From assembly GCF_000422545.1 (NCBI RefSeq), contig NZ_KE383874.1, forward strand, positions 119,214-183,213: a stretch of DNA of 64,000 bases. Reading direction: 5' to 3'. This stretch comes from Desulfocurvibacter africanus subsp. africanus DSM 2603 (GTDB lineage: Bacteria; Desulfobacterota; Desulfovibrionia; Desulfovibrionales; Desulfovibrionaceae). This document shows positions 22,887 to 62,629 of the stretch, in pieces. The position numbers were made by a program, and so were the translations under genes. Below the pieces are notes generated by a model. It was not told the origin of the DNA. It made no database searches and saw nothing but the letters and a program-made list of their open reading frames with translations. Position 1 is the stretch's first letter, and each line of letters begins with the position of its first letter.

Positions 22887-22963
22887 CGGGGCGTGGCGCA
22901 GTCTGGCAGCGCGCCTGCTTTGGGAGCAGGATGCCGGGAGTTCAAATCTCTCCGCCCCGACCA
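22887..22963 (+). tRNA. tRNA-Pro (anticodon UGG)
   Basis: 77 nt including encoded CCA. Acceptor stem CGGGGCG / CGCCCCG, anticodon stem CCTGC / GCAGG around loop TTTGGGA (anticodon TGG), T-loop TTCAAAT. Its 3' 46 bases are the phage attachment core, so the 3' half is phage-derived in this lysogen while the gene stays intact. Confidence 0.96.
22918..22963 (+). other. Left attachment core (in tRNA-Pro)
   Basis: 46 bp identical to 60818-60863. Starts in the tRNA anticodon loop (CTTTGGGAGC) and runs to the CCA end; flanks diverge on both sides. Confidence 0.95.
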
Positions 22964-35116: not shown

Positions 35117-35157
35117 GGTATGCTCCTTCGCCCATGACGGGCGCTGTTGATGCTGGA

Positions 35158-36813: not shown

Positions 36814-36818
36814 GCCCT

Positions 36819-37280: not shown

Positions 37281-37287
37281 GGCTCAC

Positions 37288-38397: not shown

Positions 38398-38406
38398 GGT
38401 CGTCTC

Positions 38407-39099: not shown

Positions 39100-39553
39100 G
39101 GCTGCCCTCCATGCCCGCTACCGCCTCGGCTTCGGTGATATCGGCCTCCGCGATGCGCCAGCGCTTGCCGTTGAAAACGATAGGGCCGGCGGCATCCTCG
39201 ATGACCGTGATCCGCTCCTCGAACTCGCAGGCGATGTCCACGTCGCAGGTCTTGGCGTCGTTTATCTCGACGTCCAACTCCGGGTCGGCCAAGCCATTCC
39301 GGTCATCGTCGTTGTCCGCCAGCCAGCCCAGGATGACCGCCAGAAGTGTCTGGCCGTCTCCGGCGTAGCGTTCGAGCTGGATAACGGCATCGTACTTCCA
39401 GATGCCGATCTCGATCTGTTCGCCGTTTTCGCCCTCGCCCAGGTGTCGGCCCGTCGGCGCCAGATTGCCTTTGTCCGCAAAGGCCGTGATCTGCTCGCGC
39501 GGCAGGCGGGTGACCTCTTTGATGTGGGCGACCAGGGCGGTAATCTTGTGCAT
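39089..39553 (-). CDS. Tail completion protein R-like
   Basis: 154 aa. Pattern matches P2 gpR: DAVIQLERYAGDGQTLLAVI, WLADNDDDRNGLADPELDVE, and a strand-rich C-terminus. Terminates tail extension together with gpS, which overlaps it. Confidence 0.8.
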   Translation of the reverse strand: MHKITALVAHIKEVTRLPREQITAFADKGNLAPTGRHLGEGENGEQIEIGIWKYDAVIQLERYAGDGQTLLAVILGWLADNDDDRNGLADPELDVEINDAKTCDVDIACEFEERITVIEDAAGPIVFNGKRWRIAEADITEAEAVAGMEGSRGD

Positions 39554-39560
39554 GATGACC

Positions 39561-40016
39561 TCAAATCAGCTCGGCTACTATGCGGCCGCGTCCGCACAGA
39601 TCCGCGATGGCGTCCTGTGCCCAGGCGTAAAACCTGTCCGCCGTCTCGGGGGATTCCTTGGCGTCGTTCTTAGCCGCCTCCCGGCGCTCCACCGTGGCGA
39701 ACTGCCCAAGCAGCAAGGCCTTGGCATGGCAGTAAACGGCCCGCTTGAAGAGCCGTGTCGCCTCACCGGCCAGGCCTGCGAAAGGCACTTCCGCCAGCGA
39801 GAGATAACCGGCCATTTCTTGAGCCGCCCGCCACTCCTGAAGCTGACGCACGGCCCACAAGCGAGCGAGGCCGAGGTGATCCTCCACCAGGCTCTCCGCA
39901 TATTCCGCCGGCAGGCGGTACATGAGCTGGAACTCGCCCACGGCGATGTCCGGATACCAGCCGTCACCGGCCAGGGTGGCCGTGGAGGTCTGGTAAGTCA
40001 GGGCGTTGAAGCTCAT
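39561..40016 (-). CDS. Head completion protein L-like
   Basis: 151 aa. Begins MSFNALTYQTSTATLAGDGW and contains GEFQLMYRLPAEYAESLVED, resembling P2 gpL, which stabilises the filled head and forms the head-tail adaptor. 95 bp separate it from gpM with no gene seen. Confidence 0.8.
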   Translation of the reverse strand: MSFNALTYQTSTATLAGDGWYPDIAVGEFQLMYRLPAEYAESLVEDHLGLARLWAVRQLQEWRAAQEMAGYLSLAEVPFAGLAGEATRLFKRAVYCHAKALLLGQFATVERREAAKNDAKESPETADRFYAWAQDAIADLCGRGRIVAELI

Positions 40017-40111
40017 GTATGATCCTTAGAGTTGGGGCTGCCTTCGGCTGCTGGCTACGTGCGCCCTGCGCTGTGCCTTGGCCTCGGCAGCCCCGGTTGG
40101 CTGGAGAGTAT

Positions 40112-40888
40112 CTAGGCCTCCGCTCCGCCTTCTTCGGGCGGGTCGGAGGGCTGCTGTTGCTGTTCGTCCTGACCGTCCTGGCCACCGTCGCGGGCCAGGC
40201 GCTTCTTTACGGCCTCAAGGGCCGTCTTGACCTTGGCTCCCAAGGCAAAGGCGCGCTCCAACTCCTGGGCAGCCAGGGAGAGCTTGCCCTCTCGCTCGGC
40301 CTGTAAGCCGAGCAGGCGATGGAAGCCGGCCTTGACCTGGTCAGGGAGATCCCAAGTATTGCCGGAATCGGGGCCGTCGCTCTCGATCTCCAGCAGGACG
40401 ATGGAGAGGTACGGCTCGAAGGTTCGCTCCGCGTTGTACTCGCGCTCGGCCCACTCCAGGAGCTGAGTGGCTACGAACAAAGGCAGGCTGGCCTTGAACC
40501 GCTCCGGCAGGGTCTGGCCGTGCTCCAGGCACCAAAAGGCAACCCGAAGCCCGTCCTCGATGCATCCGGCATCAAAGCACCAGACAAGAAACCAGCCGAT
40601 GAGATCGTGCCGCTGACCATCGGCCATGAGGCGCTCCACATAGTCCCGGTACTTGGGGATAAGCGCATTCCGCTTGATGTCCGCCTTGCGTTCCACCGAG
40701 GCGACGTTGTGCAGCGCCTTGAGGTCCTCCGTCAGAGATGCGGAGAGCATGGCCGCGAGCTTCTGCCCGCCCATGAGGCCCGTGGGCATGGTGCCCAGCA
40801 CGCGCGCGCCGGAAGCAATCTTCTGCCCTGCCGGCTCAATCGAGCGGCTGGCCTGCATGGCTTGTTGATGGTTGCGCATCAAGCCCAT
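40112..40888 (-). CDS. Terminase small subunit M-like
   Basis: 258 aa from the ATG at 40888; an in-frame GTG at 40900 is also possible. Helical protein: SLTEDLKALHNVASVERKAD, RDYVERLMADGQRHDLIGWF, and a C-terminal Q/E/P-rich tail (DEQQQQPSDPPEEGG). Matches the small terminase gpM family, which recognises cos and guides the large subunit gpP. Confidence 0.82.
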   Translation of the reverse strand: MGLMRNHQQAMQASRSIEPAGQKIASGARVLGTMPTGLMGGQKLAAMLSASLTEDLKALHNVASVERKADIKRNALIPKYRDYVERLMADGQRHDLIGWFLVWCFDAGCIEDGLRVAFWCLEHGQTLPERFKASLPLFVATQLLEWAEREYNAERTFEPYLSIVLLEIESDGPDSGNTWDLPDQVKAGFHRLLGLQAEREGKLSLAAQELERAFALGAKVKTALEAVKKRLARDGGQDGQDEQQQQPSDPPEEGGAEA

Positions 40889-40890
40889 GG

Positions 40891-41916
40891 CTAAGCCCAC
40901 CCGCCTGCGCCATCGGGCAGCTTCACGTTGGCGAATTCCACGCCCACGAACTTCTCCGGGGTCTCGACCAAATAGCCTTCATTGCGGCTGTTGTAGTCTT
41001 CGACCTGATCCTTCTTGGGGTTGTCCACGATTTGCCGCCGCCAGGAGTCGGCCTGCTGGTAGATGGACAGGTTGTTATAGGAGGTGATGACCAGCCCGCG
41101 CGCCGGGTAGTTGGAAGGCGTCTCCCAGGGGATGCCGCCGAAGGTGGTCAGGCTGGCGTTGAGCTGCGCCTTCTCCGTGGGCTGTCCGCCCACTGCGGCG
41201 TAGAGCGCGGACTTCTCCTGCGCGACGAGGTCCGCGCCGATGAGCGCGACCAGATCCTTGCGCATGTACTCGGGAATGCCCTGCATGAGGTCATTGACGG
41301 CCACGTCCAGGTTGGGCCAGTCACCGCCTTCGCCGATGCGGATCTCATTCAGGGTTGCTCCCTGGGCCAGGATATTGGCCGGCAGGTTGTCACGCATGTA
41401 CTGCAGCCAGCCCTTGTTCACGTCCTGCAAAAAGGGGTTGGCCACCAAGTCCGTATCCTGTGCGCCCGAGGTGCCGTACCAGCCGATGAGTTCCATGTCG
41501 CTGGCCATGCGCTCCCGCACATAGCGGGCATAGTGCTCCGCGAAGTCCTTGAACTTGGCCCAGGCATCCATGATGCGGTACGGCAGGGCCACGTCGGCAT
41601 TGGTTTGCAGCAGCTCAAAGCTGTAGCTGCCCATGCCCAAAACGTTGCGCGGCGTGCGCTCCTTGCCAGGCTGCGACGTGTCCGTACGGCCGGTGACCGG
41701 ACTGGAGGCAGAGCCGAGGATGTTCTCGCCCTTGAGTTCATCCACCGGCAAGATGTTGATCTTGGGCAGGAAGGTGGAGGACTCCACGATCTTGTCCTTG
41801 AGCGTCTGAGCGATGGAAGGGACAATGGAAAACTGCCGCTCCACGCTGGGAATGCCGTAGGTATGGGCGAAACGGGCCATCAAGGCCGCGTAAAGTTTAC
41901 GTGTCTGTTCATTCAT
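40891..41916 (-). CDS. Major capsid protein N-like
   Basis: 341 aa. Starts MNEQTRKLYAALMARFAHTYG. Typical P2 gpN segments: RTDTSQPGKERTPRNVLGMG, MASDMELIGWYGTSGAQDTD, VNKGWLQYMRDNLPANIL and an end with SRNEGYLVETPEKFVGVEFA. HK97-fold shell protein, likely trimmed at the N-terminus by the gpO protease as in P2. Upstream frame extension is rejected. Confidence 0.92.
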   Translation of the reverse strand: MNEQTRKLYAALMARFAHTYGIPSVERQFSIVPSIAQTLKDKIVESSTFLPKINILPVDELKGENILGSASSPVTGRTDTSQPGKERTPRNVLGMGSYSFELLQTNADVALPYRIMDAWAKFKDFAEHYARYVRERMASDMELIGWYGTSGAQDTDLVANPFLQDVNKGWLQYMRDNLPANILAQGATLNEIRIGEGGDWPNLDVAVNDLMQGIPEYMRKDLVALIGADLVAQEKSALYAAVGGQPTEKAQLNASLTTFGGIPWETPSNYPARGLVITSYNNLSIYQQADSWRRQIVDNPKKDQVEDYNSRNEGYLVETPEKFVGVEFANVKLPDGAGGWA

Positions 41917-41926
41917 GGTGCTGCTC

Positions 41927-42769
41927 CTAGTAGATGGGGGCCTGGTCTTCGGCCGGGGCAGTGCTGGGCGGGACGGACGTGCCAGGCTTGGCGGCCTCGA
42001 AGCGCTTGGCCATGTCGCCCACCTGCTGTCCAAGCTGGGTCACGGCCTCGGTCAGGGTAGCGAACTTGTCGCTGCCATCCTCCGGCTTGGCAGCCGGCTT
42101 CTCGGCAGCTTCCGGCTTCTGCGCGGAGGCGGCCGTGAAGGCGGCCAGCGATCCCTTGATCTCCTCTACGGCGGTGCCAAGGGCATTGACCTTGCCCTGC
42201 AGCGCCTCGAACTGTGCCTTGTCCATGGGGTCCTCTTGGGGGTTGTCGTGGCTTTGGTCTGAGGGAAGGCGGGAGAACATTTCCCGGAAACGGGTGAACC
42301 AACCCGGCTCGGGCTCTTCCTTGGCGGGGAACTCGCACTCCACGTTGGAGACGAAAACGGTTCCGGCGGACTGCTTGCGCTGCGAAAAGCGCATCTCGTC
42401 GGTGCCCAGCGAAGCCGGGGAATCGGTGATGCCTAGCCCGACAAGGTAGGCCTTGCCCGTGCCGGCGAAGCTTGGCTCAATCTCCATGCTGAAAAACAAA
42501 CGCTGGCCGAACTGGTTTTCCCAGACATAGGTGGCGTTGGGCTGAATACGCGCGTACAGGCTGACCACGCCGCCCTCTTCCTCGGCCTTGAGTTCCAGCA
42601 CTTTGCCGTAGTTCTGCCATCGGAAATGATCCGGCCAGATAAGGGCCGTGTACGTCGCCGGGGAATAGGATTCCGCAGCCTGCAGCAGCCATTCAGGCTT
42701 GATGGTCCGGCCGTCTATGGTGGGGCCGGACTGGCCGATCTTGCGGAATTCCGAGGTGAGTTTACTCAT
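41927..42769 (-). CDS. Capsid scaffold and maturation protease O-like
   Basis: 280 aa. N-terminal serine protease domain with D19 (TIDGRTIKP), H48 (IWPDHFRW) and S94 (FFSMEIEPSFAG); these align with the P2 gpO triad Asp19, His48 and Ser107. LVGLGITDSPASLGT follows. The C-terminal half (about 165-280) is Ala/Lys/Glu-rich, coiled-coil-like (MDKAQFEALQGKVNALGTAV), the scaffolding part. First gene of the minus-strand late operon. Confidence 0.9.
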   Translation of the reverse strand: MSKLTSEFRKIGQSGPTIDGRTIKPEWLLQAAESYSPATYTALIWPDHFRWQNYGKVLELKAEEEGGVVSLYARIQPNATYVWENQFGQRLFFSMEIEPSFAGTGKAYLVGLGITDSPASLGTDEMRFSQRKQSAGTVFVSNVECEFPAKEEPEPGWFTRFREMFSRLPSDQSHDNPQEDPMDKAQFEALQGKVNALGTAVEEIKGSLAAFTAASAQKPEAAEKPAAKPEDGSDKFATLTEAVTQLGQQVGDMAKRFEAAKPGTSVPPSTAPAEDQAPIY

Positions 42770-42853
42770 GCGCCCCTCTGCATGTGGCTGATGGAAAGTC
42801 CGTTACAGCCAGACATGTAGGCACAGATGGCAAGGCGTGGTCAAAGACGGCGC

Positions 42854-42876
42854 GTCCGATATGGCGCAAATCGGAC
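42854..42876. promoter_or_regulatory. Inverted repeat between divergent late operons
   Basis: GTCCGAT (42854-42860), 9-bp spacer, ATCGGAC (42870-42876). It lies in the 151-bp gap between the O-like gene (minus) and terminase P-like gene (plus), where P2-type late promoters and activator sites sit. Binding by the Ogr-like protein is an inference; the classic TGT-N12-ACA motif was not found here. Confidence 0.4.
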
Positions 42877-42920
42877 ATGCTGAGCGGGAGCAGTGTTCAG
42901 GGCCATGCTATTAAAGCGCC

Positions 42921-44747
42921 ATGGAAACGCGGAACACAGGGCGTGCAGGCGGACGCAACTATCCAGAGGAGATCAAGCAGGCGGCCCGAGGGCTGTACTG
43001 GAAGCGATATACAGTCGCGGAGATCTCAGAGACGCTCAATGTACCGCGCCGCACCGTGTACCATTGGGCCACCGTGGGAGACTGGGACGCCCTGCTCACG
43101 CATGAGACGGCTGAAGAGGCGGTTCAGCGCCGCCTGGCGCTGCTGGCCGAGCGCGATCCAAAGACGCAGACCGAGCTAAAGGAAATCGAGCTGCTGATCG
43201 GTTCCCTGGAGCGCTTGCAAGCCCTGCGCGTGAAGGAGCGCCAAATGTTGGCGGCAACCAACATGGTGTCTCCGGAGGCGGCTCCGCAGGTAGTGGAGGG
43301 AAGCGAACGCTCGTCCGTGAACTGTCCGCCGCAATCACGCGGGAATGGCGGGAAGCGTGGGCCCAAGATCAAGAATGACGTTTCGCGCCTGACGCCCGAC
43401 TTGTTCCAGGAGAAGTTCCACACCAGATTCTTCGACTACCAGCGCCAGTTCCGCGCGGCCATAAGCCAGCGCAACCGCATGTATCTCAAAAGCAGGCAGA
43501 TCGGGGCGACCTGGTACTTCGCCCAGGAGGCCTTCGAGAATGCCTGCCTGACCGGCGACAACCAAATCTTCCTGTCCGCGACCAAGGCCCAGAGCCAGGT
43601 TTTCCGCAACTACATCGTGCAGCTCGTGGGCGAGGGATTCGACATCACCCTGCAGGGCAACCCGCTCATCCTTAATACCGCCCATGGCAAGGCCGAGCTG
43701 CACTTCCTGTCCAACAATTCCAAGAGCGCCCAGAGTTATCACGGGCACGTCTACATCGATGAGTTCTTCTGGATCACCAAGTTCCGGGAGCTGTTCAAGG
43801 TGGCCACGGGCATGGCCGCGCACAAGAAATGGCGGCGCACGCTGTTCTCCACGCCCTCGGCCGTGACGCATGAGGCCTATGGATTATGGACGGGCGAGAA
43901 TTTCCAGAAGCGCTTCGCCAAGCCCAAGCCATGGCCGGACTTCTCCGCCTTGCGCGCCGGCGTGCCCTGCCCGGACAGCTACTTCCGACAGATCATCACC
44001 CTGGCCGATGCCCAAGCCGGCGGCTGCGACCTGTTCGACGTGAAGCAGCTCAAGCTGGAGTACACGCCAGACGAGTTCCGGCAGCTCTTCGGCTGCGAAT
44101 TCATAGACGATACCCAAGCCGTGTTCGCCCTGGCGCTCCTGGAGCGCTGCATGGCCGATCCGGCTGACTGGCAGGATGTCCGGCCTGGAGATGCGCATCC
44201 CGTGGGCAACCGGCCGGTGTGGGGCGGCTACGACCCGAGCCGCAGCCGCGACGATGCCAGCTTCGTGGTACTCCTGCCGCCGCTCAAGGGCGAAAAGATC
44301 CGCTGCATCGAGCGCCACAAGTGGCTGGGCAAGTCATACCTGTGGCAGGCCGCGCGCATCAAGGAACTGGCGGACAAGTACCGCTTCACACACATGGGGA
44401 TTGACGTAACCGGCCCCGGCATCGGCGTGTACGAGCAGGTTCGGCAGTTCTGCCCCGTGGCCATGGCCATCAACTACGCCGTGCAGTCCAAGGCCGTGCT
44501 GGTGCTCAAGGCCAAGGAGGTCATGGAGCAGGAGCGGTTGCAGTGGGACGCCGGGGAGACGGACATCGGGCATGCCTTTTTGACCATCCGGCAAACCACA
44601 ACTGACAGTGGGCAGATCACCTACTCAGCCAACCGAACGGCCAGCACCGGCCATGCCGACGTGGCTTGGGCCATCATGCACGGTTTGGCGGCCGAGCCGC
44701 TGGCCAGGCAGACGGGCAGCTCTGGCTGCACCGTCGCCATCGGATAA
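42921..44747 (+). CDS. Terminase large subunit P-like
   Basis: 608 aa packaging motor. An N-terminal HTH-like part (YTVAEISETLNVPRRTVYHW) is followed by the ATPase with Walker A-like KSRQIGATW (190-198) and Walker B VYIDEFFW (277-284), then the nuclease domain with GYDPSRSRDDASFVVLLP and GIDVTGPGIGVYEQV acidic residues. Divergent from the O-N-M operon as in P2. No strong ribosome site before the ATG, so the start is less certain. Confidence 0.93.
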   Translation: METRNTGRAGGRNYPEEIKQAARGLYWKRYTVAEISETLNVPRRTVYHWATVGDWDALLTHETAEEAVQRRLALLAERDPKTQTELKEIELLIGSLERLQALRVKERQMLAATNMVSPEAAPQVVEGSERSSVNCPPQSRGNGGKRGPKIKNDVSRLTPDLFQEKFHTRFFDYQRQFRAAISQRNRMYLKSRQIGATWYFAQEAFENACLTGDNQIFLSATKAQSQVFRNYIVQLVGEGFDITLQGNPLILNTAHGKAELHFLSNNSKSAQSYHGHVYIDEFFWITKFRELFKVATGMAAHKKWRRTLFSTPSAVTHEAYGLWTGENFQKRFAKPKPWPDFSALRAGVPCPDSYFRQIITLADAQAGGCDLFDVKQLKLEYTPDEFRQLFGCEFIDDTQAVFALALLERCMADPADWQDVRPGDAHPVGNRPVWGGYDPSRSRDDASFVVLLPPLKGEKIRCIERHKWLGKSYLWQAARIKELADKYRFTHMGIDVTGPGIGVYEQVRQFCPVAMAINYAVQSKAVLVLKAKEVMEQERLQWDAGETDIGHAFLTIRQTTTDSGQITYSANRTASTGHADVAWAIMHGLAAEPLARQTGSSGCTVAIG

Positions 44748-44758
44748 CAGGAGAGGAC

Positions 44759-45784
44759 ATGGGCAGGAAGAAACACAAGAGGGGGTCGGCAGCGCAAAGC
44801 GCCGGCGGAAGCGTGCAGGCCTTCAGCTTCGGCGATCCGGAGCCGGTACTAAACGGAGCGCTCTACGACGGCCTGGGCGTATGGCTGCTGGACAACGGGC
44901 AATACTATCAGCCGCCCGTGCCCCTGCGCGGCCTGGCCCGGCTGCTGCGCGCCAATGCCTACCACGGCCCCATCCTGGAGTTCAAAACCAACGTGGTCAT
45001 GCGCGGGTTTCTGACCTCCCCTGCCCTGTCCAGGCGGAGCATGCACGCGATGGCCACGGACTACATGGTCTTTGCCAACGCCTACCTGCGCAAGGTCTTC
45101 AACTGGTACGGCGAGATCATCGGCCTGGAGCATCTCCCGGCCATCAATATGCGCCGCATGCGCAATCACGACCACTACGGCCTGTTGACCGCAAGCGGCC
45201 AGATCCAGCCCTTCCAGCCAGGCGAGGTGGTGCATGTCAAAAACTATGACGTGAGCCAGACCATCTACGGCATGCCCGCCTATCTGGGAGCCATCCAGTC
45301 CATGCTGCTGAACGAAGACGCGACCCTGTTCCGGCGGCGCTACTACCGCAACGGCGCGCACATGGGCTACGTGTTCTACTCGGCAAGCGCGGCCCTGCAG
45401 CCGGAGGACAGCGGTCGCATCAAGGCCGCCATCGAGGGCTCCAAGGGCATCGGCAACTTCCGCAACATGTACCTGCATATTCCTAATGGCCGAGAGAAGG
45501 ACGTGCAGATCCTGCCCGTGGGTGACTTCTCCACCCGGGACGAGCTGGAGAAGATCAAGAACATATCCCGCGACGACATCATCGCCGCGCACCGCATCCC
45601 CCCGGCCATGGCCAGCATCATCCCCCAGGCCGCCGGCGGCTTCGGGGACATCACCAAGATAGATGCAGTCTACGAAAAGAACGAGATCACGCCCGTAAGG
45701 GAAGTGTTGCTCGAGGTGAATGAACATCTGCCGGAACGTGCAAAGGTCGGATTTGCGCTGAGCAAAGAGGCGGAAGAGGCCTAA
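44759..45784 (+). CDS. Portal protein Q-like
   Basis: 341 aa. Phage portal (PBSX/P2 type): PEPVLNGALYDGLGVWLLDN, HGPILEFKTNVVMRGFL, EVVHVKNYDVSQTIYGMPAY, and IAAHRIPPAMASIIPQAAGG. Forms the dodecameric DNA gate at the head vertex. Start MGRKKHKRG at 44759 has GGAGAG; 11 nt after the terminase stop. Confidence 0.92.
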   Translation: MGRKKHKRGSAAQSAGGSVQAFSFGDPEPVLNGALYDGLGVWLLDNGQYYQPPVPLRGLARLLRANAYHGPILEFKTNVVMRGFLTSPALSRRSMHAMATDYMVFANAYLRKVFNWYGEIIGLEHLPAINMRRMRNHDHYGLLTASGQIQPFQPGEVVHVKNYDVSQTIYGMPAYLGAIQSMLLNEDATLFRRRYYRNGAHMGYVFYSASAALQPEDSGRIKAAIEGSKGIGNFRNMYLHIPNGREKDVQILPVGDFSTRDELEKIKNISRDDIIAAHRIPPAMASIIPQAAGGFGDITKIDAVYEKNEITPVREVLLEVNEHLPERAKVGFALSKEAEEA

Positions 45785-45841
45785 CGCGGCTTGACAGCCG
45801 TGGTGTGCATGTAGTTGTGTTTTATTGGGAGGTTGAACACA

Positions 45842-46084
45842 ATGCGGATTTCCTGCGACAGGTGCCAAAGCAAGGCCCGTATCGCCACCACCCGTGAGAT
45901 TACCCCGAGGCTGCGCAAGCTATACTGTGCCTGTACCAATGTTGAATGCGGGCACACTTTCGTCATGCATCTGGAGTTCGGCCACACTATTTCCCCATCT
46001 GCCCTGGACCTGCCCGAAGCCACCCGCGAGGCGCTGCGCGACTGCGTTAGTCCTGCCCAAGCACAGCTTGTTCTGGCCGGATAA
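45842..46084 (+). CDS. Ogr/Delta-like late gene activator
   Basis: 80 aa. Zinc motif C5-x2-C8 (ISCDRCQSKA) and C-x4-C (CACTNVECGHTF), followed by VMHLEFGHTISPS, matching Ogr_Delta proteins that bind late promoters and contact RNA polymerase alpha. GGGAGG ribosome site; a TTGACA (45791-45796) upstream may be its own -35. In P2 ogr is at the other end of the tail operon; here it follows the portal gene. Confidence 0.88.
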   Translation: MRISCDRCQSKARIATTREITPRLRKLYCACTNVECGHTFVMHLEFGHTISPSALDLPEATREALRDCVSPAQAQLVLAG

Positions 46085-46444
46085 CCAAGTCCGACCAGAA
46101 CTCCTTACATATACATATCCCTAAAGCACTTAGCTGTAGGCTGGGTGTCAATTATTTTCTCGGTATATAGAACTATCCACTGAGTCCTATATTCAGCTAC
46201 ACAACCGTAGCCTTACTCCCTATTCATTTCCGTAGGGTTATATTTTTTTATTTTCCATATTGAGTAAACTGATATTTTTTGATTTTAGTAATTTTATAAC
46301 TGGTAGCACTTTATACTACATACAATATATTACTAGGCAAACGTATTAATACACCTGTCCCACATTAATAACAACAGCCCACAATCTGCTCCTCGATAGT
46401 CACTTTACCCCTTGCCTAATACAATACTGATCACCAACAATGCA
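46085..46444. other. AT-rich non-coding stretch
   Basis: 360 bp with no gene and a far lower GC content than the neighbouring genes (long A/T runs such as the one near 46240-46270). It marks the junction between phage late genes and the chemotaxis cargo and suggests separate acquisition. Confidence 0.6.
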
Positions 46445-46471
46445 TAAAGTTTATCAGCAATACACCGATAT
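46445..46471 (+). promoter_or_regulatory. Sigma-28 (FliA) type promoter for chemoreceptor gene
   Basis: TAAAGTTT (46445-46452), 11-bp spacer, ACCGATAT (46464-46471). The flagellar sigma-28 consensus is TAAAGTTT-N11-GCCGATAA: full match in the -35, exact spacing, 6 of 8 in the -10. The chemoreceptor ATG is 51 nt downstream. Confidence 0.75.
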
Positions 46472-46522
46472 TGGCATCTTGGGGGGAAGTGGTAGTCATC
46501 TTCCAATTTCACAGGAGCTGAA

Positions 46523-48205
46523 ATGTCTTTAAAAATGCGTCTCTTTGGCGGTTTTGCTTTGGTTTCCCTTATTGTTGCACTTTCCGGTATTTTCAACTTT
46601 TGGGGTACAAGTAGACTCACCGGCCATATTAATGAAATCAGCGACGTCAGGTTACCTGGCATCCAATCCCTGCTCATCATGAATGAGGCCCAAACAGCAA
46701 TTAAAGCGGCGGAACGTACGCTTCTCAGCGCTGCAATTACTGAAGAAGAGCGTCAACGCCAGTTTGTGAACATAAAAGAGTCCTGGAGCGAGGCGGATGA
46801 GGCCTGGAAGGTATACGAGCCCTTGCCTAAGACCGAGCGAGGTGCGGCAAAATGCAGTGAGCTTGAACAGGCTTGGAATGCATGGCGACAGGACATGGAT
46901 GAGTTCATAGGTCTTGCCCAACGCTACTCCCAAGACAGGTCTAGCGAAAATCAAGACAATATGGCGCGGCAGGCACTTACGGTCAACGCGCTTTCATACA
47001 ATAAGGCCGAGGCGCTCATGATAGAGCTTGTGGGCATCAATAAGCAGGAAGCCCAAGCTGCTGTGGACCAGGCGGAATCAGATTCGTCGCTGATTACTTC
47101 GGCAACGGTATCCGTTGTGCTAGCAGGCGTGCTCCTATCCATTTTCCTGGCCGTAATCATAGCCAGAAATGTACTTAAACAGCTTGGTGATGATCCTGCA
47201 GTCATCGGTGACATTGTCAGTAGTGTCGCCGAGGGCGATCTTATGGTCCAGTTCAGGAATCAGAAAGCCACCGGCGTCTATGCCGATATCAAATCGATGG
47301 CGGAGCGCCTACGCGATGTCGTTGCAGAAGTGCGTAGCGCGGCCGACAACGTGGCATCAGGCAGTGAGGAGCTTTCGGCCGCTTCCGAGTCTTTGTCGCA
47401 AGGCGCCACCGAGCAGGCCGCCAGTGTGGAGGAAATTTCGTCCTCCATGGAAGAGATGGCCGCCAACATCCGTCAGAATGCGGAAAACGCACAGCAGACC
47501 GAGAAGATCGCCCTCAAGGCGGCAGCCGACGCCAGGCAGGGCGGCGAGGCCGTAGAGCAGACCGTGGAAGCCATGAAGGAGATCGCCGACAAGATTTCCA
47601 TCATCGAAGAAATCGCCCGCCAGACCAACCTGCTCGCCCTGAACGCCGCCATCGAGGCGGCACGGGCCGGAGAACATGGCAAGGGCTTCGCCGTGGTCGC
47701 GGCCGAGGTGCGCAAGCTTGCCGAGCGAAGCGGATCGGCTGCTGGCGAGATCAGCGAATTGTCGGCCACGAGCGTTCACGTCGCCGAGCAGGCCGGCGAG
47801 ATGCTCAAAAAGATCGTGCCCGACATCCAGAGGACGGCCGAGCTCGTGCAGGAGATCGCCGCAGCCAGCAACGAGCAGAATTCGGGTGCCGAGCAGATCA
47901 ACAAGGCCATCCAACAGTTGGATATGGTCGTACAGCAGAACGCCTCTGGGTCCGAAGAGACAGCCTCCACGAGTGAGGAACTCTCCAGCCAGGCCGAGCA
48001 GCTTCAGCAGACCATCAGCTTCTTCAAGGTCGAGACTGCCCATACTGCGCACGCAAGCCAGACAAGGAAGCAGCAAAACGCCCCGGCTGCCAAAAGAAAT
48101 GCACAGATCGGGACGGGCAAACCAGGCAACGGCAAGGGCGGTACGAAGAAGGTTGCCTTGAGCATGGGCACGGATGTGTCGGACCATGAATTCGAGCGTT
48201 TCTAG
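46523..48205 (+). CDS. Methyl-accepting chemotaxis protein (prophage cargo)
   Basis: 560 aa membrane chemoreceptor. TM1 at about 9-27, an extracytoplasmic four-helix-type sensor (30-188), TM2 at about 190-214, HAMP at about 215-268, then a long signalling coiled coil whose hairpin tip reads [20 protein letters not shown] (362-381) and [18 protein letters not shown], the canonical CheW/CheA contact. Glu/Gln-rich heptads provide methylation sites. The tail ends SDHEFERF after a basic linker. AGGAG 7 nt upstream. Preceded by a sigma-28-like promoter and followed by cheW. Ligand unknown. Confidence 0.94.
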
Positions 48206-48225
48206 CCATGCAACAGGAGCCCGAC

Positions 48226-48741
48226 ATGAGTGAACATGCCGTTTCGAGTAGCGGTCAGTACCTGACTTTCACCCTCGCGGATGAGGTCTTCGCCCTGGAT
48301 ATAAGTACCGTGCGCGAGGTTCTGGAGCTTCCAGCCATTACCCGCGTCCCCCGGATGCCAGCCGACATGCGCGGAGTGATCAACCTGCGCGGGCAGGGCG
48401 TGCCGGTGATCGACCTGCGGCGCAAGTTCGACCTGGATTGCGCCAAGGACACGATCAATACATGCATTATCATCGTGGAAACAAATGGCCCGGAAGGCCT
48501 GTGCGTGATGGGAGCCATTGCTGATTCCGTCCGCGAGGTCATGGACATACCCCCCGATGCAGTCATGCCTGCACCCAAGATGGGAACTGCCGTGCGTAGC
48601 GACTTCATCGCGGGAATCGGACGCCTGAACGACGCCTTCGTCATCATTCTCAATGCGGAACGGATTTTCGGAAATGTGCTGGATCTCGATCAGCAGATGG
48701 CCGCAAGCCCCCTCCAAGAACTGGCGGATTGCCCAGCATAA
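48226..48741 (+). CDS. cheW: CheW chemotaxis coupling protein (prophage cargo)
   Basis: 171 aa. CheW fold: SGQYLTFTLADEVFALDIST, VREVLELPAITRVPRMPADM, RGVINLRGQGVPVIDLRRKF and AGIGRLNDAFVIILNAERIF. Links the receptor to CheA kinase. The ATG at 48226 has AGGAG 6 nt upstream; an earlier in-frame ATG at 48208 lacks one. 20 nt after the receptor, one transcription unit ending at a strong hairpin. No CheA is present, so it would use host kinase. Confidence 0.93.
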   Translation: MSEHAVSSSGQYLTFTLADEVFALDISTVREVLELPAITRVPRMPADMRGVINLRGQGVPVIDLRRKFDLDCAKDTINTCIIIVETNGPEGLCVMGAIADSVREVMDIPPDAVMPAPKMGTAVRSDFIAGIGRLNDAFVIILNAERIFGNVLDLDQQMAASPLQELADCPA

Positions 48742-48748
48742 AGCATGA

Positions 48749-48788
48749 AGGCCGCGCAGGAGCTTATGCTCCTGCGCGGCCTATTTGT
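48749..48788 (+). terminator. Terminator after cheW
   Basis: 15-bp perfect stem AGGCCGCGCAGGAGC / GCTCCTGCGCGGCCT with TTAT loop, followed by ATTTGTT. Confidence 0.8.
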
Positions 48789-48795
48789 TCGATCT

Positions 48796-48996
48796 TTAAT
48801 GCTCGACCTTAACCGCCGCCGCTTCCCGTTTCCCAGGCTTCCACTTGTCATCCAACTCCGCGCCGCAACGGTCCAGATCATCGCCAAGCAGGTTCAGGAT
48901 CAGGGCCAAGCCGCCTTGCTCTTCCGGTAGCTGCTCGGCCAGCGTGCGCAAGGCTTCCGCGTGCGAGTAGATGCGGACTAGGGGGTCAACTTCCAT
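48796..48996 (-). CDS. Small acidic phage protein
   Basis: 66 aa, MEVDPLVRIYSHAEALRTLA. No family recognised. Helical, acidic, contains GGLALILNLLGDDLDRCG. ATG overlaps the stop of the upstream gene (ATGGAAGTTGA). Third gene of a three-gene minus-strand operon of unknown role, convergent with cheW. Confidence 0.55.
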   Translation of the reverse strand: MEVDPLVRIYSHAEALRTLAEQLPEEQGGLALILNLLGDDLDRCGAELDDKWKPGKREAAAVKVEH

Positions 48997-49375
48997 GTTG
49001 CTTCTCCTCCCGCGCGAGAGCAGCGCGCATGCGCTCCACATCGCCCGCCAGCCAGACGAGTTGACGATGGATGGCGTCCTGCCGTCCCGCGCCGATGCCA
49101 GCGAGTTCGGCGGCCAACCGAGCGAGCTTGCCTTGCAGCGTGGCCATCCCGTCCAGGCTGTAGGCCGATATTCGGCCGGCCCAGCGCACGTCCTGGCGCA
49201 GGTTGCCGGCCACGTCCTTGGCGGCCGCAGCGATCTTGTCCAGGTCGGGCAACAACGGGTGCCAGCCAACGGCAATGGTTTCGGCCCTCAGATCGGCCAT
49301 GTCTCGAATCAGGCGGTCCAGTCCGGCGACGACGGCGATGGCGTCCGGATACGTGGGCTCTTCATGGGTGCTCAT
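48986..49375 (-). CDS. Helical phage protein of unknown function
   Basis: 129 aa from the ATG at 49375, MSTHEEPTYPDAIAVVAGLD. Helical with repeated hydrophobic heptads (LDKIAAAAKDVAGNLRQD, MATLQGKLARLAAELAGIG). No family recognised. ATGA overlap with the upstream gene, 11-nt overlap with the downstream one. Confidence 0.55.
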   Translation of the reverse strand: MSTHEEPTYPDAIAVVAGLDRLIRDMADLRAETIAVGWHPLLPDLDKIAAAAKDVAGNLRQDVRWAGRISAYSLDGMATLQGKLARLAAELAGIGAGRQDAIHRQLVWLAGDVERMRAALAREEKQHGS

Positions 49376-49698
49376 GCCGCCGCCTCCGCAGGGATTGCGG
49401 TTGCCGGACGGCCTTCCGCCGCATTGCCAAGGCTGGGCGCAACGGAGGGCTGTACCTCCATTTTCCCAGGAACGGCAACCCGAGCCGTGACTTGAAGGCT
49501 TTGGTCGGCAATGGTCCAGGCAACGCGGCAGGATGGAGGCAGGGGCAGACGACGCAATGCGCAGGCGGCTTCGCTTTCGCCCCGGCAGGCAAGCCAGGCG
49601 ACGAGCTGGGCCAGCGGGGTCATGCCTCCGCAGAAGTGGGATGCCCGGGAGAGGCGCAGGCGAGGTGGAGAGGAAGAGACAGGGAAAGAGTTGGACAT
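49372..49698 (-). CDS. Phage protein of unknown function
   Basis: 108 aa, MSNSFPVSSSPPRLRLSRAS. Contains ASHFCGGMTPLAQLVAWLAC and a proline/alanine-rich C-terminus. Not recognised; first gene of the operon 49698 to 48796. Confidence 0.5.
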   Translation of the reverse strand: MSNSFPVSSSPPRLRLSRASHFCGGMTPLAQLVAWLACRGESEAACALRRLPLPPSCRVAWTIADQSLQVTARVAVPGKMEVQPSVAPSLGNAAEGRPATAIPAEAAA

Positions 49699-50053
49699 GA
49701 GAGGCCTCCACGGATCTTTAGATTGGCCCCCTCCGATAAAGAAGGTGCCGGGTGCTCTAAACCGCCGTGGAGCGGCGGGCATATTCCCCCGAAGGGTATT
49801 GTATTAGCCCACACCCGACATGAATGCGCGAAGAGACTGTGCCTCATTGGGCACAAAAAAACCACGAACTGACGGGCGTGGGACCGTCCACGGACAAGGA
49901 GTTTAGAGGCTCCTGGGGGCATATTGACCTAGGGGTGGGAGGCGTGTCAAGAGATCCATATATAGACTCACACTATGCTTTGTTACGTTTATGCATGAAG
50001 TTGTGGCGCATGTCCTTCGCAAACAGCCAGCAAACCACGCAAGGAGTATCGTC
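49699..50053. other. Divergent intergenic region
   Basis: 355 bp between the minus-strand trio and the 82-aa gene. A minus-strand TTGACA (49950-49945) with a weak TCAATA 17 bp on may drive the trio. A short hairpin (GCCGTGGAGCGGC) lies near 49765. No gene seen. Confidence 0.4.
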
Positions 50054-50302
50054 ATGGCCGGGAACAAAAAGAAATCGAGTCCGGATCTTTCAAGCTTGGC
50101 TTCAAAGACGCTTAGAGATGAGGATGCATCTAAAATTCAGAAGAGGTTAGCAGGATCTGTGCTTTCCCAAGCCAGCAAGGACAAACAAACTGGCGCTGAT
50201 CTTGAAGACATCGCTTCCAAGGCTTTGAAGAGCGATAAGTACAGCGATACGACGAAGACCCTCGCCGGGTCGGTGCTATCTCAGTCCAACAAGAAAAGAT
50301 AA
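50054..50302 (+). CDS. Small basic protein with two internal repeats
   Basis: 82 aa, MAGNKKKSSPDLSSLASKTL. Two copies of a ~35-residue unit: LASKTLRDEDASKIQKRLAG then SVLSQ, and IASKALKSDKYSDTTKTLAG then SVLSQ. Highly basic ends. I recall similar small proteins in phages and integrative elements with no known function. AAGGAG ribosome site 8 nt upstream. Confidence 0.7.
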   Translation: MAGNKKKSSPDLSSLASKTLRDEDASKIQKRLAGSVLSQASKDKQTGADLEDIASKALKSDKYSDTTKTLAGSVLSQSNKKR

Positions 50303-50782: not shown

Positions 50783-51766
50783 TTATTGAGGCGGACGTAT
50801 ACTCTGATCGGCGTAGAAGGGGCGCAATTCCCTGAGGGGTAATGGCCACAAGTCACTCGTTTGGCTTTGGCAAGTATACGCAAAAAAATAGACCAGAAGG
50901 GCGGCTGGCTGACGAAAGAGGTGTTTTTCCTCTGCATGCTTACCAAGCTTATCCAGGAGATACTCATTTTCATCAAGGAAGCGGTTGAAGCGCACCTCCC
51001 ATTTGTCAGCCAGAAGCTCTTTAAAAGCATCGATAATGAGAGCATTGACCGGCCCAGGATCAGGCGACCTTGGCACTCGCTCTTGATATACTTTGAGAAG
51101 AAGCTCCATAGCCTTGTCCACGGGTTCGCCCGCCTTTTTGATCTCATCCGCTACGCGCAGAAAAAGGTCATCCGCTGCTTCTATCAGTGCCATGCTCCGC
51201 GCACAATAGCGCTTGACGAGCGGAGAGGCAGCAGTATTAGGCTTATAAGTTGTATCGTGGGTAAGCTCACTATATGCATGTTGTAATAATGTACGTATCT
51301 GAACCTCGCATGGGACAGTTGGAGGAATCGCAGCCTCCCCATGTAAGATCATATCCACAGGCCTCAGTTCATAATGAACCGATTGATATCCAAAAGCCTC
51401 GGGGCTCTTCTTCCGCTCATCCAAGAAATCCCTTGCGAGAGTTGTCTCCCAGACTGAGTTCTTTTTGATAATCGATTTTACAATTTCAATATCTGATTCA
51501 AGTAAAACTACAAACCGAACACCCACTTTGTCAGTGATTTCATCATATGGGTTTATATAAGGCTTTTTCCGATAGAACGCCTTATCCAAAAGTGATTTAT
51601 CCTCTTTCAGCCTGGGCTCTGAAGGCACTTTGAGAAAGTAGTTAACTTTCCTTGGCGCTATATGAGCACTCAAGTCCTTTAATATCGTATCCGTGACAAA
51701 GCTGCCCCAGGATTCATAGATCTGCCTCTCAGATCGCCAGCGGGTTAGAAACTCTGCCTCTGTCAT
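50783..51766 (-). CDS. RelA/SpoT-type nucleotide (p)ppGpp/pApp synthetase domain protein
   Basis: 327 aa, no hydrolase, TGS or ACT domain. Synthetase signatures are complete: PRLKEDKSLLDKA (51-63, R-x-K-x3-S loop), D79 in ITDKVGVRFVVLL, GYQSVHYEL (126-134) and CEVQIRTLLQHAYSELTHDT (153-172) with the catalytic-type E154 and Q156. The C-terminal ~150 residues are a helical extension not seen in housekeeping small alarmone synthetases. Its start overlaps the NA37 gene stop (ATGA). Low-GC relative to phage genes. Could be a toxic (toxSAS/CapRel-like) effector. Confidence 0.85.
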   Translation of the reverse strand: MTEAEFLTRWRSERQIYESWGSFVTDTILKDLSAHIAPRKVNYFLKVPSEPRLKEDKSLLDKAFYRKKPYINPYDEITDKVGVRFVVLLESDIEIVKSIIKKNSVWETTLARDFLDERKKSPEAFGYQSVHYELRPVDMILHGEAAIPPTVPCEVQIRTLLQHAYSELTHDTTYKPNTAASPLVKRYCARSMALIEAADDLFLRVADEIKKAGEPVDKAMELLLKVYQERVPRSPDPGPVNALIIDAFKELLADKWEVRFNRFLDENEYLLDKLGKHAEEKHLFRQPAALLVYFFAYTCQSQTSDLWPLPLRELRPFYADQSIRPPQ

Positions 51767-52854
51767 TCTTCCCTCATGATACGATCACGAATGGTAAGCA
51801 CAGTCCATTGCGGAGATTTGCTTTCTTGCCCATCAGGCGCATCGATGACCTCAACAGTGACCAACTCCTTAAAACTATCCGCAGGGGCAGTAAGCCTGAT
51901 ATTTGAGCGAAATCGCAGTCTACGCTGCTTTAGATGAGACTGTATGTCCGACAAATCCTTTGCCACCGCTGTCATGGGAAATCCTTTATCCATCATGTGG
52001 CTTCTATAAGCATCCTGAAGCCTTGGCTCTCCAAGATAACTACTGGCAAACGTGTCAACTTGAATTTTTGCTGCCCTATCTGTTTTTAAATAAACGTACA
52101 AGGCCGTCTTATATTCTACTTTCTGCTCCTCTGGCACATCGAGGGAATCAATAAACTTTGACGTATAACTATAGAATTCTTTCGTAGTTCTTGCACAGGA
52201 TTGAAGGAAAGCACAGCCAAGAAAGCCATCATAAAAATACACAGCGGCCTTATCGCGATCCTTCGATGTCATGTTGTGATCAAAAACGAAAGCCTTATAG
52301 CTATCTGCTAAATTATCTCCTGAAGATTGATCCCCATTTTCCACAAAAGCTCCTATCTTATACAATCTTGCCTTGGGAGTAAGGAACAATTCTTCAAGGA
52401 AATGGAGATTGATTGAGCCATCGCTCTGCTTTATCCGCGAGAAACCATCTTGAGCTTCCGCCTTTATTACTATGAGCGCTTTCCTTCCTGGATTGCCAAC
52501 CGTGCCAGTGATGACCACGATAATGCCACCCGGAATGTTTGTTGCCTTCTGAGCATCCGCCAACAAGTCGGCTACCCTTGCTGATTCTGGAACAAAATCA
52601 CCATTCGTAGCAACCAACAAACGCCTGCAAACTCCTAGCAAGCTCTCGTCATGTATTTTGTTAATCCGCATTTCCACACATTGAGATGAACGACCCATAG
52701 CATCAGCAATACGGTCTTCAATTGCTTGCATTGCTGCTGGGGTAAGCGATATCAACATATTTCCATACCGAGGAGGAATGCACTCATCTTTTGTCTTCCG
52801 CTCAAACACCTCATGAACTATGAGCCTCTCAATCTTCAAGTTCGTGAAATGCAT
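51763..52854 (-). CDS. NA37/YejK-like nucleoid-associated protein
   Basis: 363 aa from MHFTNLKIERLIVHEVFERK. Pattern of the 37-kDa nucleoid-associated family: PRYGNMLISLTPAAMQAIED, IPGGIIVVITGTVGNPGRKA, KAAVYFYDGFLGCAFLQSCA and a C-terminal FRSNIRLTAPADSFKELV. These proteins bind nucleoid DNA. Co-transcribed with the RelA/SpoT-like gene through a 4-nt overlap. The longer upstream frame (to 52968) has no support. Confidence 0.8.
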   Translation of the reverse strand: MHFTNLKIERLIVHEVFERKTKDECIPPRYGNMLISLTPAAMQAIEDRIADAMGRSSQCVEMRINKIHDESLLGVCRRLLVATNGDFVPESARVADLLADAQKATNIPGGIIVVITGTVGNPGRKALIVIKAEAQDGFSRIKQSDGSINLHFLEELFLTPKARLYKIGAFVENGDQSSGDNLADSYKAFVFDHNMTSKDRDKAAVYFYDGFLGCAFLQSCARTTKEFYSYTSKFIDSLDVPEEQKVEYKTALYVYLKTDRAAKIQVDTFASSYLGEPRLQDAYRSHMMDKGFPMTAVAKDLSDIQSHLKQRRLRFRSNIRLTAPADSFKELVTVEVIDAPDGQESKSPQWTVLTIRDRIMREE

Positions 52855-53087
52855 GCCGTTACTCCTGTCATTTCGAGATCGAAGCACAACTAAATCAATT
52901 TGATAAGGCAACCAAATCGTCGCAAACACGGATAAGTTCATCCAGTGTACGCACCTGGATAGAGCCATCCCGGATCATTGCGCTAAATCCAGGGAGGTGT
53001 TCATGCATGTCTCCCTATTTTTTTGTCGTTGGGGTTATGTGCCCCATCGTGACTACGATAGCAAGTATCTCTTGATGTGAGAACGCA

Positions 53088-54327: not shown

Positions 54328-54915
54328 TCATGAAGGTAGTTGGAACACCCAGCAACGCATGTTCTTCTTGGCGTGCTTCGAATACACGCCGCGATTGGCG
54401 GCGACAAAACGCCGGGGATAGCTCTCTGGAAGCTGCTTCCGGAGCGAAGGCATGTCCGGCGCCAACTGGCAATGGCGGCGGCAAGCTTCGATGAACTGGT
54501 TAAAGTTGATGGCGATTTGCCCAGGATTCTTGGAATGATTGAGCCAACCCCGTTCTCCGTTCGGCCCAAGCTTGGCATTAAGTTGTTCATACTGTTGCCA
54601 AAAGGCCGTTACCGCTTCCGGCTCCTCGGGCTCGCCCTGCATATAGGTCTGGTACTCCCGCACTGCATCGCGGCTCACCTGTCGGCCCTTGAGGAGCAAT
54701 GCGTCGTTCTGGCGCAGCACGTACACCCCGGCAGCCTGCAGTGCTTCCGGAACAGCTGTCTCGATGTCGCTGATGTCATGCCTGGCCTTGAGCTGCTCCA
54801 GGAGCGCCGCGCGGGGCATACCAGCAAGCATGGCCCAGATGGCCACCAGATCCTGTAGCTTCTGCACTGTGATCACGGCTGGAGTCATTGGGGGAAACGA
54901 TTCATCAACGGACAT
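54328..54915 (-). CDS. Stand-alone paralog of the primase-helicase C-terminal domain
   Basis: 195 aa. Its last ~95 residues (WQQYEQLNAKLGPNGERGWL to YSKHAKKNMRCWVF) closely match the C-terminus of the adjacent 919-aa protein (WETYDYLNSKMAGGAF to YSKHAKKTMKCWLF): shared INFNQ[FY]IEACR and RRFVA[AS]NR. The N-terminal ~100 residues differ. Probable tandem duplication giving a separate DNA- or partner-binding subunit. Starts 2 nt before the upstream gene's end. Confidence 0.75.
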   Translation of the reverse strand: MSVDESFPPMTPAVITVQKLQDLVAIWAMLAGMPRAALLEQLKARHDISDIETAVPEALQAAGVYVLRQNDALLLKGRQVSRDAVREYQTYMQGEPEEPEAVTAFWQQYEQLNAKLGPNGERGWLNHSKNPGQIAINFNQFIEACRRHCQLAPDMPSLRKQLPESYPRRFVAANRGVYSKHAKKNMRCWVFQLPS

Positions 54916-59418: not shown

Positions 59419-59647
59419 GGTCGAGCCGGGCTATTTCAACTTCAAGCAGGCCGCGGCCTATGTTGGATTTGGCAAGACCGCCTTCCGCGACTACGTCCTA
59501 AAAGGGCAAATCCCCAAGTACGGACCGAAGCTGAACCGCTTCCGCAAGGCGGATCTTGATGCGTTCATGGAAGACCCCAACATATTCAGGTCCCCTACTC
59601 GCATTGTCACGCCGTATCGTGAGGGTTTCACTCCCGTTACATTATGA
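59411..59647 (+). CDS. Excisionase/AlpA-like HTH protein
   Basis: 78 aa. Winged-helix HTH_17-type: NFKQAAAYVGFGKTAFRDYV, then KFGPKLNRFRKADLDAF-like KYGPKLNRFRKADLDAFMED. Such proteins bind and bend DNA as excisionases. ATGA overlap with integrase supports a directionality role. Confidence 0.75.
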   Translation: MREVEPGYFNFKQAAAYVGFGKTAFRDYVLKGQIPKYGPKLNRFRKADLDAFMEDPNIFRSPTRIVTPYREGFTPVTL

Positions 59648-60690
59648 GCGTCCACCAGAAAAAGAACGGCACGTGGTTTGTGCAGTACCGGGTTCCCGGC
59701 GAGAAGATCCCTCGCCGGGAATATTTTGGTGTTGGGTCGGACGGCGAGCAGAAGGCCAGGACACGGGATGCTGAAATCAAACTCATCAAGACGCAAGGCA
59801 AGCAGCCGCTGGTGGTCGGCAAGGAGCGCATGCACCTGGATGCCTTGGCGCAGATCTACATAACCGAACGAAAAACGCGCGGCGCATCACAGAGGTGGCT
59901 TCAAGAGGTCACTCGCCTACTGAACAACTACGTCCTCCCAGCGCTTACCTATAAGCCGGTGGATGCCATTACCTACCCGGATGTCATCGGCTTCATGGAG
60001 GCCCAATGGGGCAAGCGTACACTGGCGACCCGACAGCGCTATCTTGGCTATCTCAAGGCTCTGTTCCGTTTCGGCATTGAGCACGGCCTCACTGCAAACA
60101 ACCCCCTGGCCAAATGGCGCAAGACAAGAGAGCGCCGGCGAGATCTGCACCTCACCGTTGAGGACCTCGGCCGCCTCTTGGCCTGCGCTATGCCACACCT
60201 GGCCTGGGCCATTGAGGTCGAGTGGGAACTGGGCACCCGCCCTGGTCCTTCGGAGTTATTCGCCCTTCGCTGGTCCGACATTGATTTCGTGGCATGCCAT
60301 GTCCATGTCCGGGGAACCAAGACGCTTGGTTCCAATCGCATCATCCCCATAACCCCGGAGTTCCGGGACAGGCTGGCCGTGATGCGCCAGAAGGCTCAGA
60401 GTGATTACGTCATCGAGTATCAGGGGCGACGGATCGGACGCTTGCAAAAGGCCTTGCATAGAGCGGCCGAAAAGGCGGGGATCAAATACAAGGTGCGGAT
60501 GTATGACATTCGCCACCTCTTCGCGTCATCAATGCTCGCCGGCGGCGCGGACCTGGCCGCCGTCTCCAGAATTCTCGGGCACTCCACCATCACGACAACC
60601 CAGCAGAACTACTACCATCTCCTGCAGGGCGAGATGGGACGCGCCATCCGCACTCGACCACGCCTCGGCATAATAGCTGACAAGGATTAG
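59644..60690 (+). CDS. Tyrosine recombinase integrase
   Basis: 348 aa. N-terminal arm-binding and SAM-like core-binding regions, then the catalytic domain: R199 (GTRPGPSELFALRW), K226 (RGTKT), R290 in MYDIRHLFAS, H313 (ILGHSTITTT) and the nucleophile Y323 (or Y324) in QNYYHL. The usual His of the HxxR box is Tyr287, a known variation. Lies 127 bp from the right att core; arm repeats are in between. Confidence 0.95.
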   Translation: MSVHQKKNGTWFVQYRVPGEKIPRREYFGVGSDGEQKARTRDAEIKLIKTQGKQPLVVGKERMHLDALAQIYITERKTRGASQRWLQEVTRLLNNYVLPALTYKPVDAITYPDVIGFMEAQWGKRTLATRQRYLGYLKALFRFGIEHGLTANNPLAKWRKTRERRRDLHLTVEDLGRLLACAMPHLAWAIEVEWELGTRPGPSELFALRWSDIDFVACHVHVRGTKTLGSNRIIPITPEFRDRLAVMRQKAQSDYVIEYQGRRIGRLQKALHRAAEKAGIKYKVRMYDIRHLFASSMLAGGADLAAVSRILGHSTITTTQQNYYHLLQGEMGRAIRTRPRLGIIADKD

Positions 60691-60817: not shown

Positions 60818-60863
60818 CTTTGGGAGCAGGATGCCGGGAGTTCAAATCTCTCCGCCCCGACCA
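60818..60863 (+). other. Right attachment core (partial tRNA-Pro 3' end)
   Basis: 46 bp identical to 22918-22963. No 5' half of a tRNA precedes it, so it is only the displaced 3' end. Confidence 0.95.
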
Positions 60864-62620: not shown

Positions 62621-62629
62621 GCTCACTCC

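Follow-up and report, generated by a model that had tools for sequence, protein, structure and literature searches.

A P2-like prophage of Desulfocurvibacter africanus subsp. africanus DSM 2603 carries a chemoreceptor gene and a gene for the coupling protein CheW as exchangeable cargo. The two genes were found in a 64,000-nucleotide (nt) stretch of this 4.40 Mb genome (the window; G000:C40:119214-183213, a single contig, NZ_KE383874.1, referred to as C40). We consider it probable that the pair is a moron-like cassette that a P2-like phage took from the host's stock of receptor-CheW pairs, that it is transcribed by sigma-28 and that its products are wired into the host CheA array, which would give the lysogen a new taste or a shifted taxis.

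The prophage extends from 22918 to 60863 (~37.9 kb; 60.9% GC). Its left attachment (att) site is the 3' 46 nt of a tRNA-Pro(TGG) gene (22918..22963, + strand; ARAGORN tRNA 22887-22963), and its right att site is an identical copy of this tRNA end in direct orientation (60818..60863, +), adjoined by a tyrosine integrase gene (59644..60690, +; phrog_1, E 4e-53). The P2-type terminase, portal, capsid scaffold, tail sheath and Ogr, together with the integrase and the att repeats, identify the element as a P2-like temperate prophage. Left of the pair lie the late structural gene for the major head protein (40891..42033, −; phrog_70, E 5e-109), the large terminase subunit (42921..44747, +; Terminase_6N/6C, phrog_3746), the portal protein (44756..45784, +; the longest open reading frame (ORF) in this frame begins at 44666; phrog_68, E 6e-124) and an Ogr/Delta-like late-gene activator (45842..46084, +; Ogr_Delta, E 8e-17) that forms the left border of the cargo site. 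The right border is a convergent prophage gene without a Pfam match (48986..49711, −), which is kept in a sister prophage at 88% amino acid (aa) identity. Further right, the early region includes the phage primase (54917..57676, −; phrog_1139, E 8e-227). The initial annotation had placed the pair inside a prophage, between late and early genes, and this position holds: the element is att-bounded, with ogr on the left and the primase and early genes on the right.

The sister prophage shows that the pair is true prophage cargo, as had been proposed from the sequence. This contig (L233; IMG/VR UViG 3300006483_000005) aligns with the window in two blocks, 36616-46008 at 95% identity and 48848-50295 at 90%, and has no nucleotide match to the segment between them (46009..48847; blastn against the window). 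The replacement in L233 is ~1.2 kb long and holds an HTH_3 gene plus another small gene. As L233 has other genes at the exact site, the receptor-CheW pair is exchangeable cargo and not leaked host DNA; like a moron, it is found in this phage, and a close relative has something else in the same position. The interval between ogr and primase ranged from 45 to 9037 nt among the 34 loci that reached the primase, and this is therefore a variable site. The second small gene of L233 was considered as a RelE/HigB-like toxin-antitoxin partner; this was our own reading, and it was dropped as the gene had no Pfam match even at E 1.

The first gene of the pair (46523..48205, +) encodes a methyl-accepting chemotaxis protein (MCP) of 560 aa (Pfam 4HB_MCP_1, E 8.8e-19; MCPsignal, E 3.8e-37). 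The CheW gene (48208..48741, +; 177 aa; Pfam CheW, E 4.4e-35; PDB CheW 2ho9, E 9e-25) follows after 2 nt, and both frames are intact. The receptor has a four-helix-bundle sensor, two hydrophobic segments (within residues 2-29 and 187-222), a signalling hairpin with a conserved tip, four full methylation-type motifs and a C-terminal EFERF. The CheW product has one PF01584 match and neither a kinase nor a receiver domain. These matches agree with the earlier description of a full MCP and a CheW without a CheA: a genome search with H-kinase_dim found no CheA in the prophage, and its two matches lie on other contigs (C7 and C10). Pfam HAMP had no match in the receptor, and a PDB chain named HAMP plus Tsr (3zx6) aligns from residue 229. 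Relative to Tsr chains the receptor shows two symmetric 7-residue gaps, one heptad fewer in each hairpin arm, and it would thus be a 34H receptor, which we take to be the class one heptad per arm below the 36H receptor Tsr. The EFERF tail fits x-[HFYW]-x-x-[HFYW], presumably the CheR-docking motif, and a similar pentapeptide ends six other receptors of this genome. A structure model of the sensor, built from 4 sequences (mean pLDDT, a per-residue confidence score, of 70), is confident for residues ~41-180 only. The PDB structures nearest to it are the sensor of the D-Arg/D-Lys receptor Vc1313 (E 1.1e-3) and then Tsr; as these are the nearest solved sensors, the model hints at a small polar ligand.

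The pair lies in an AT-rich setting, as first described: the 438-nt gap between ogr and the receptor gene has 37.2% GC, compared with 60.9% for the prophage. Within this gap, 51 nt before the receptor ATG, lies the element TAAAGTTT-N11-ACCGATAT (46445..46471, +), reported in the initial annotation as a sigma-28 promoter with exact spacing. The Escherichia coli sigma-28 (FliA) consensus is TAAAGTTT-N11-GCCGATAA; the scores given here refer to this consensus. The element matches 14 of its 16 positions with exact spacing, as expected of a sigma-28 sequence. Downstream, the strong terminator described earlier was also recovered as a predicted intrinsic terminator (48749..48782, +; a 15-bp stem with a T-rich tail, folding at -37.6 kcal/mol, z -7.6), so that the cassette carries both a predicted promoter and a predicted terminator.

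At up to 3 mismatches, this element is the only sigma-28 match in the window, where 0.14 were expected. For a search of the whole genome, the pattern was widened at two −10 positions so that it admits the prophage site. At 0 mismatches it found two sites, the prophage element and a site 56 nt ahead of the probable start codon (ATG) of a flagellin gene, which matches the strict consensus at 16 of 16 positions. Before a second flagellin gene, a 12/16 site lies 67 nt from the ATG. It is unlikely, in our estimate, that the element is a chance match and that the pair is transcribed from elsewhere, either from a sigma-70-like promoter or by Ogr-driven late read-through after induction. Such an explanation can draw on the 13 of 100 whole-window shuffles that contained one or more matches when up to 3 mismatches were allowed, and on a sigma-70-like pair (9/12) at 46397-46425, with five such sites in 45785-49000 where 2.2 (standard deviation 1.4) were expected. 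Against this, when the AT-rich gap was shuffled 3000 times with its dinucleotides preserved, only one shuffle reached 14/16 with exact spacing, and a 16/16 site stands at a similar distance before a flagellin gene of this host.

The host genome contains partners with which the pair could act. Besides the two CheA matches, there are four matches to CheR domains, and a FliA gene lies on C9. In the mechanism that we favour, a temperate P2-like phage would have captured a receptor-CheW pair from the host lineage, and host FliA would transcribe the two-gene unit in the lysogen when flagella are built. The receptor would sit in the inner membrane, where its periplasmic four-helix bundle would sense a small molecule, and its conserved hairpin tip, together with the phage CheW and a host CheA, would bring it into the array. 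Host CheR and CheB would adapt the receptor through its EFERF tail. In this way the lysogen would acquire a new taste or a changed bias in its taxis, and the phage would benefit indirectly, from better placed lysogens.

The pair might instead act on the host without adding a sense, by titration of CheA or through a non-flagellar chemosensory pathway, with a shifted run-tumble bias, biofilm or altered sensitivity to flagellum-dependent phages as the outcome that benefits the prophage. We hold this to be rather unlikely. The CheA and CheR matches are spread over more than one contig, and CheW is supplied together with the receptor, both of which would suit it. The helix-turn-helix gene and small gene at the same site in L233 have a toxin-antitoxin-like layout, which suggests that the cargo site serves mixed purposes. 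However, a complete sensor domain and an adaptation tail would be needless for simple titration, and the promoter-like element points to the flagellar regulon.

To trace the origin of the pair, CheW relatives were sought in 288 genomes of the family; the comparison genomes listed belong to this family, and none to the same genus. The nearest CheW proteins listed are two from the host genome itself (67% and 64% identical), followed by genus g38 at 64-67%. We compared 34 CheW loci, namely the 30 best of the search, three more of the host genome and one of genome G109. In 19 of the 34, the prophage pair included, a receptor of the same kind lies at most 257 nt upstream on the same strand; the receptor-CheW pair is thus a common arrangement in the family. 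A maximum-likelihood tree of the 34 CheW rows places the prophage CheW with two pairs on contig C39 of the host genome (support 100/99), and the tree of the MCP signalling domain groups it with the same two pairs, with moderate support (82/85; 19 rows). The sensor domain differs: its best full-length match is 38% identical, in genome G277, near transporter and serine-dehydratase genes. As both trees group with host-genome pairs while the sensor is distinct, the phage probably acquired a pair of the host lineage that had an unusual sensor. We infer this direction of capture, and the trees are also compatible with the reverse.

The same kinship could suggest that a host receptor-CheW pair recombined into the prophage and is carried there unused, since, for both proteins, the closest relatives sampled belong to pairs of the host genome and the cassette recurred in no related prophage examined. 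A neutral passenger of this kind seems improbable to us. Both frames are intact, with the promoter-like element and the terminator in order, and the CheW is only 67% identical to the nearest relatives found, which suggests that the pair has long been kept open.

One of the two related host pairs lies in a neighbourhood of its own interest. This second pair (L059:8717-11298, C39 at ~228.7-231.3 kb) is 73%/65% identical to the prophage pair and has a sigma-28-like element upstream (14/16 letters, spacing 12). It is preceded by a phage tail-assembly-chaperone remnant (PF16778, E 1.6e-17; L059:5732-5890), and two more phage-like stretches were read by eye, one on either side. Genes for an integrase, a primase and a minor head protein are found nearby, and part of the neighbourhood reads as N. 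A 108-nt direct repeat that includes the 3' 60 nt of a tRNA-Leu (C39:208725 and C39:224385) bounds an integrated element of ~15.7 kb, with an integrase near its right end and a minor head protein. The second pair was rejected as cargo of this integrase-bearing element, which ends at the tRNA-Leu repeat at ~224.4 kb and leaves the pair outside. A decayed prophage around the pair is possible; it is not used in the argument here. Among 13 regions around family CheW genes, in which the search was confined to homologues of the prophage's own proteins, one contained an integrase. In this region, the receptor-CheW pair at L314:9242-13862 (G093 C13) has the phage-type integrase ~2 kb upstream of the matched receptor part.

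Next, we looked for similar cargo in other phages. Scanning with the portal alignment gave 125 loci, 79 from public genomes and 46 from viral contigs, of which 98 had an ogr match and 75 extended at least 2.7 kb beyond ogr. At E 1e-4, neither the CheW nor the sensor was found in any of the 125 portal loci, and the receptor signalling domain was found in one, on contig L209. Receptor and CheW were both absent from 20 regions of the host family, partly the same prophages as in the portal set. The search of related prophages called for earlier has thus given no second MCP-CheW pair at these loci. Scans of IMG/VR with single proteins (CheW, sensor and whole receptor) and with the CheW alignment found no relatives; such scans report only sequences that fit a small set of degenerate patterns exactly, so relatives may escape them. 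With the receptor alignment, 10 loci turned up on 9 contigs, none of them with a match to the prophage CheW. Matches in the phage collection (21 records for the receptor, 5 for CheW) are all <60% identical and, to judge from their names and lengths, mostly bacterial contigs or unannotated fragments filed as phage. Two unnamed PHROGs families, phrog_8572 and phrog_18840, match both proteins, and such genes therefore exist in the phage data of that collection.

Other receptor-like genes on viral records were noted along the way. One 16.5-kb IMG/VR contig (L143 and L147) is a Mu-like phage with transposase, tape measure and baseplate hub, and both its ends lie inside receptor genes that share a 127-nt identical stretch; it represents either an insertion among receptor genes or an assembly join. 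Receptor-like genes also occur at L144:7533-9470 and L148:7962-9707; one of these lies beside large phage proteins (phrog_1926, phrog_2299), and the other sits on a contig of 83 kb that has two receptor matches. An aerotaxis sensor receptor protein is annotated in a record of Escherichia phage P1 (MH445380.1:95828-96565); it may be strain-specific cargo or a host segment.

Several observations weigh against the reading of a sigma-28-transcribed sensory cassette. The element carries 2 mismatches in the −10 octamer, and three of the five flagellin loci lack a site above 9/16. At up to 2 mismatches, the widened pattern has 5 matches in the genome, and so does the reversed control. The initial reading of sigma-28 control is strengthened by the FliA gene and the 16/16 flagellin site, but the pattern had been widened to admit the prophage element, and its control count at up to 2 mismatches is equal. 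Upstream scores of at least 13 were found for 3 of the 27 receptor genes examined (of ~31 in the genome, the prophage one included), with starts taken mechanically, so that some upstream regions may be misplaced; these three are the prophage receptor (14), one at 17.3 kb of C40 (13) and the second C39 pair (scored 13). With so few, sigma-28 control is no clear rule for host receptors. The sensor model rests on 4 sequences, and its best PDB match (Vc1313) has E 1.1e-3, with none at or below 0.001. Lastly, no related prophage examined holds the cassette, and the genome already has ~30 receptors, so that an additional one may bring little.

The public record of this same prophage lacks the cargo. 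The IMG/VR contig L232 matches the window at 100% identity over 34756-46084, stopping with the final base of ogr; by arithmetic on its contig coordinates, the full record would span ~23448-46084, of which L232 is the part that was read. The border caller thus cut away the pair and the early genes, and the cargo is missing from this IMG/VR record, which exposes a blind spot. That the pair is host DNA beyond misjudged borders, as the stop of L232 just before it could suggest, is ruled out, short of an assembly error, by the 46-nt repeat and integrase that put the right end at 60863, by the primase and other early genes that follow the pair, and by the match of L233 on both sides of it.

The remainder of the prophage has further family matches to scaffold, small terminase subunit, tail sheath, tape measure, connectors, spanin, fibre and baseplate proteins, and by these matches the gene set looks complete. 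After the primase lies a 195-aa ORF (54328-54915, −) that repeats the primase C-terminus over 204 nt at 76%; both match the end of phrog_1139, and the ORF reads as a partial duplication of the primase. A unit of low GC at 50783-52968 (−) joins a RelA_SpoT-domain protein (PF04607; weak PADLOC match to PDC-S33) to a homologue of the nucleoid-associated protein NA37, and is possibly an alarmone-type defence or toxin. Just beyond the right att site, at 61133-63667 (−), three of four genes match unnamed PHROGs (18664, 17414, 17898) in DNA of lower GC, perhaps another island at the tRNA-Pro site.

Phages are known to alter the metabolism, surface and immunity of their hosts; to our knowledge, direct change of host navigation is little documented. 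We raise, tentatively and with more doubt than belief, the wider idea that temperate phages repeatedly take up complete receptor-CheW units as portable senses, and that public viral records miss them where border callers trim a prophage at its first host-like gene, as happened in IMG/VR here. If so, such a unit, equipped with its own CheW and a flagellar-regulon promoter, could function wherever the CheA and FliA of the host are compatible, and the swimming of the lysogen would be steered by a phage-encoded taste. The cassette is small and complete, and thus amenable to testing whether a phage steers the swimming of its host.

In P2-like phages, morons and other accessory loci form the cargo of lysogenic conversion. 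The cassette resembles these in being self-contained, with a promoter-like element and a terminator, and in occupying AT-rich intergenic DNA at a variable site between structural and early genes; it differs in that a sensory module for taxis takes the place of defence, toxin or exclusion genes. Compared with the receptor-CheW pairs of the Desulfovibrionaceae, it has the same gene order, with signalling domains 63-74% and CheW 53-68% identical in paired loci, whereas its sensor domain is distinct and it is carried by a phage. L209, a P2-like prophage contig from an Aliivibrio metagenome-assembled genome, has a 539-aa 4HB_MCP_1 receptor that starts 260 nt after the portal, with a terminase near. 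Its signalling domain is only 30% identical, it has no ogr match, and the contig ends 86 nt after the receptor gene, so that a CheW cannot be judged there; we treat it as a separate case.

Our searches of the open-licence literature turned up no description of a phage with a receptor-CheW pair. Several candidates for precedent fell away: some passages concern the staphylococcal inhibitor CHIPS, those of PMC10507051 concern chemotaxis genes of bacteria and not of phages, and in PMC4928673, PMC10746233 and PMC8163819 the word "chew" is an author's name. Passages of a Campylobacter paper describe prophages inserted beside receptor genes, and PMC10547907 cites, in the part available, archaeal mobile elements with chemotaxis receiver domains. 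The closest precedent comes from a relative: the available passages of PMC9448743 (2022) describe three MCPs of the Cache type on two prophage scaffolds of Desulfovibrio vulgaris, proposed to aid host sensing of growth substrates, and call one older metagenome survey (its reference 62) the only earlier report of viral MCPs. The rarity of chemotaxis genes as phage cargo, as initially claimed, thus holds within the collections searched, and is tempered by these receptors; viral cargo of this kind is uncommon, yet with precedent. The two mentions of CheW in the available text of that paper refer to host genomes and to methods rather than to the viral scaffolds, and its available sections give no promoter, att borders or comparison of sites. 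Both cases have chemoreceptors as viral auxiliary genes, but the D. vulgaris ones are of the Cache type as described there, whereas the receptor here has a four-helix-bundle sensor and a paired CheW, in an att-bounded prophage and at a site filled otherwise in a sister. An MCP on a prophage had already been reported; what appears to be new here is a two-gene sensory unit as the moron cargo of a phage.

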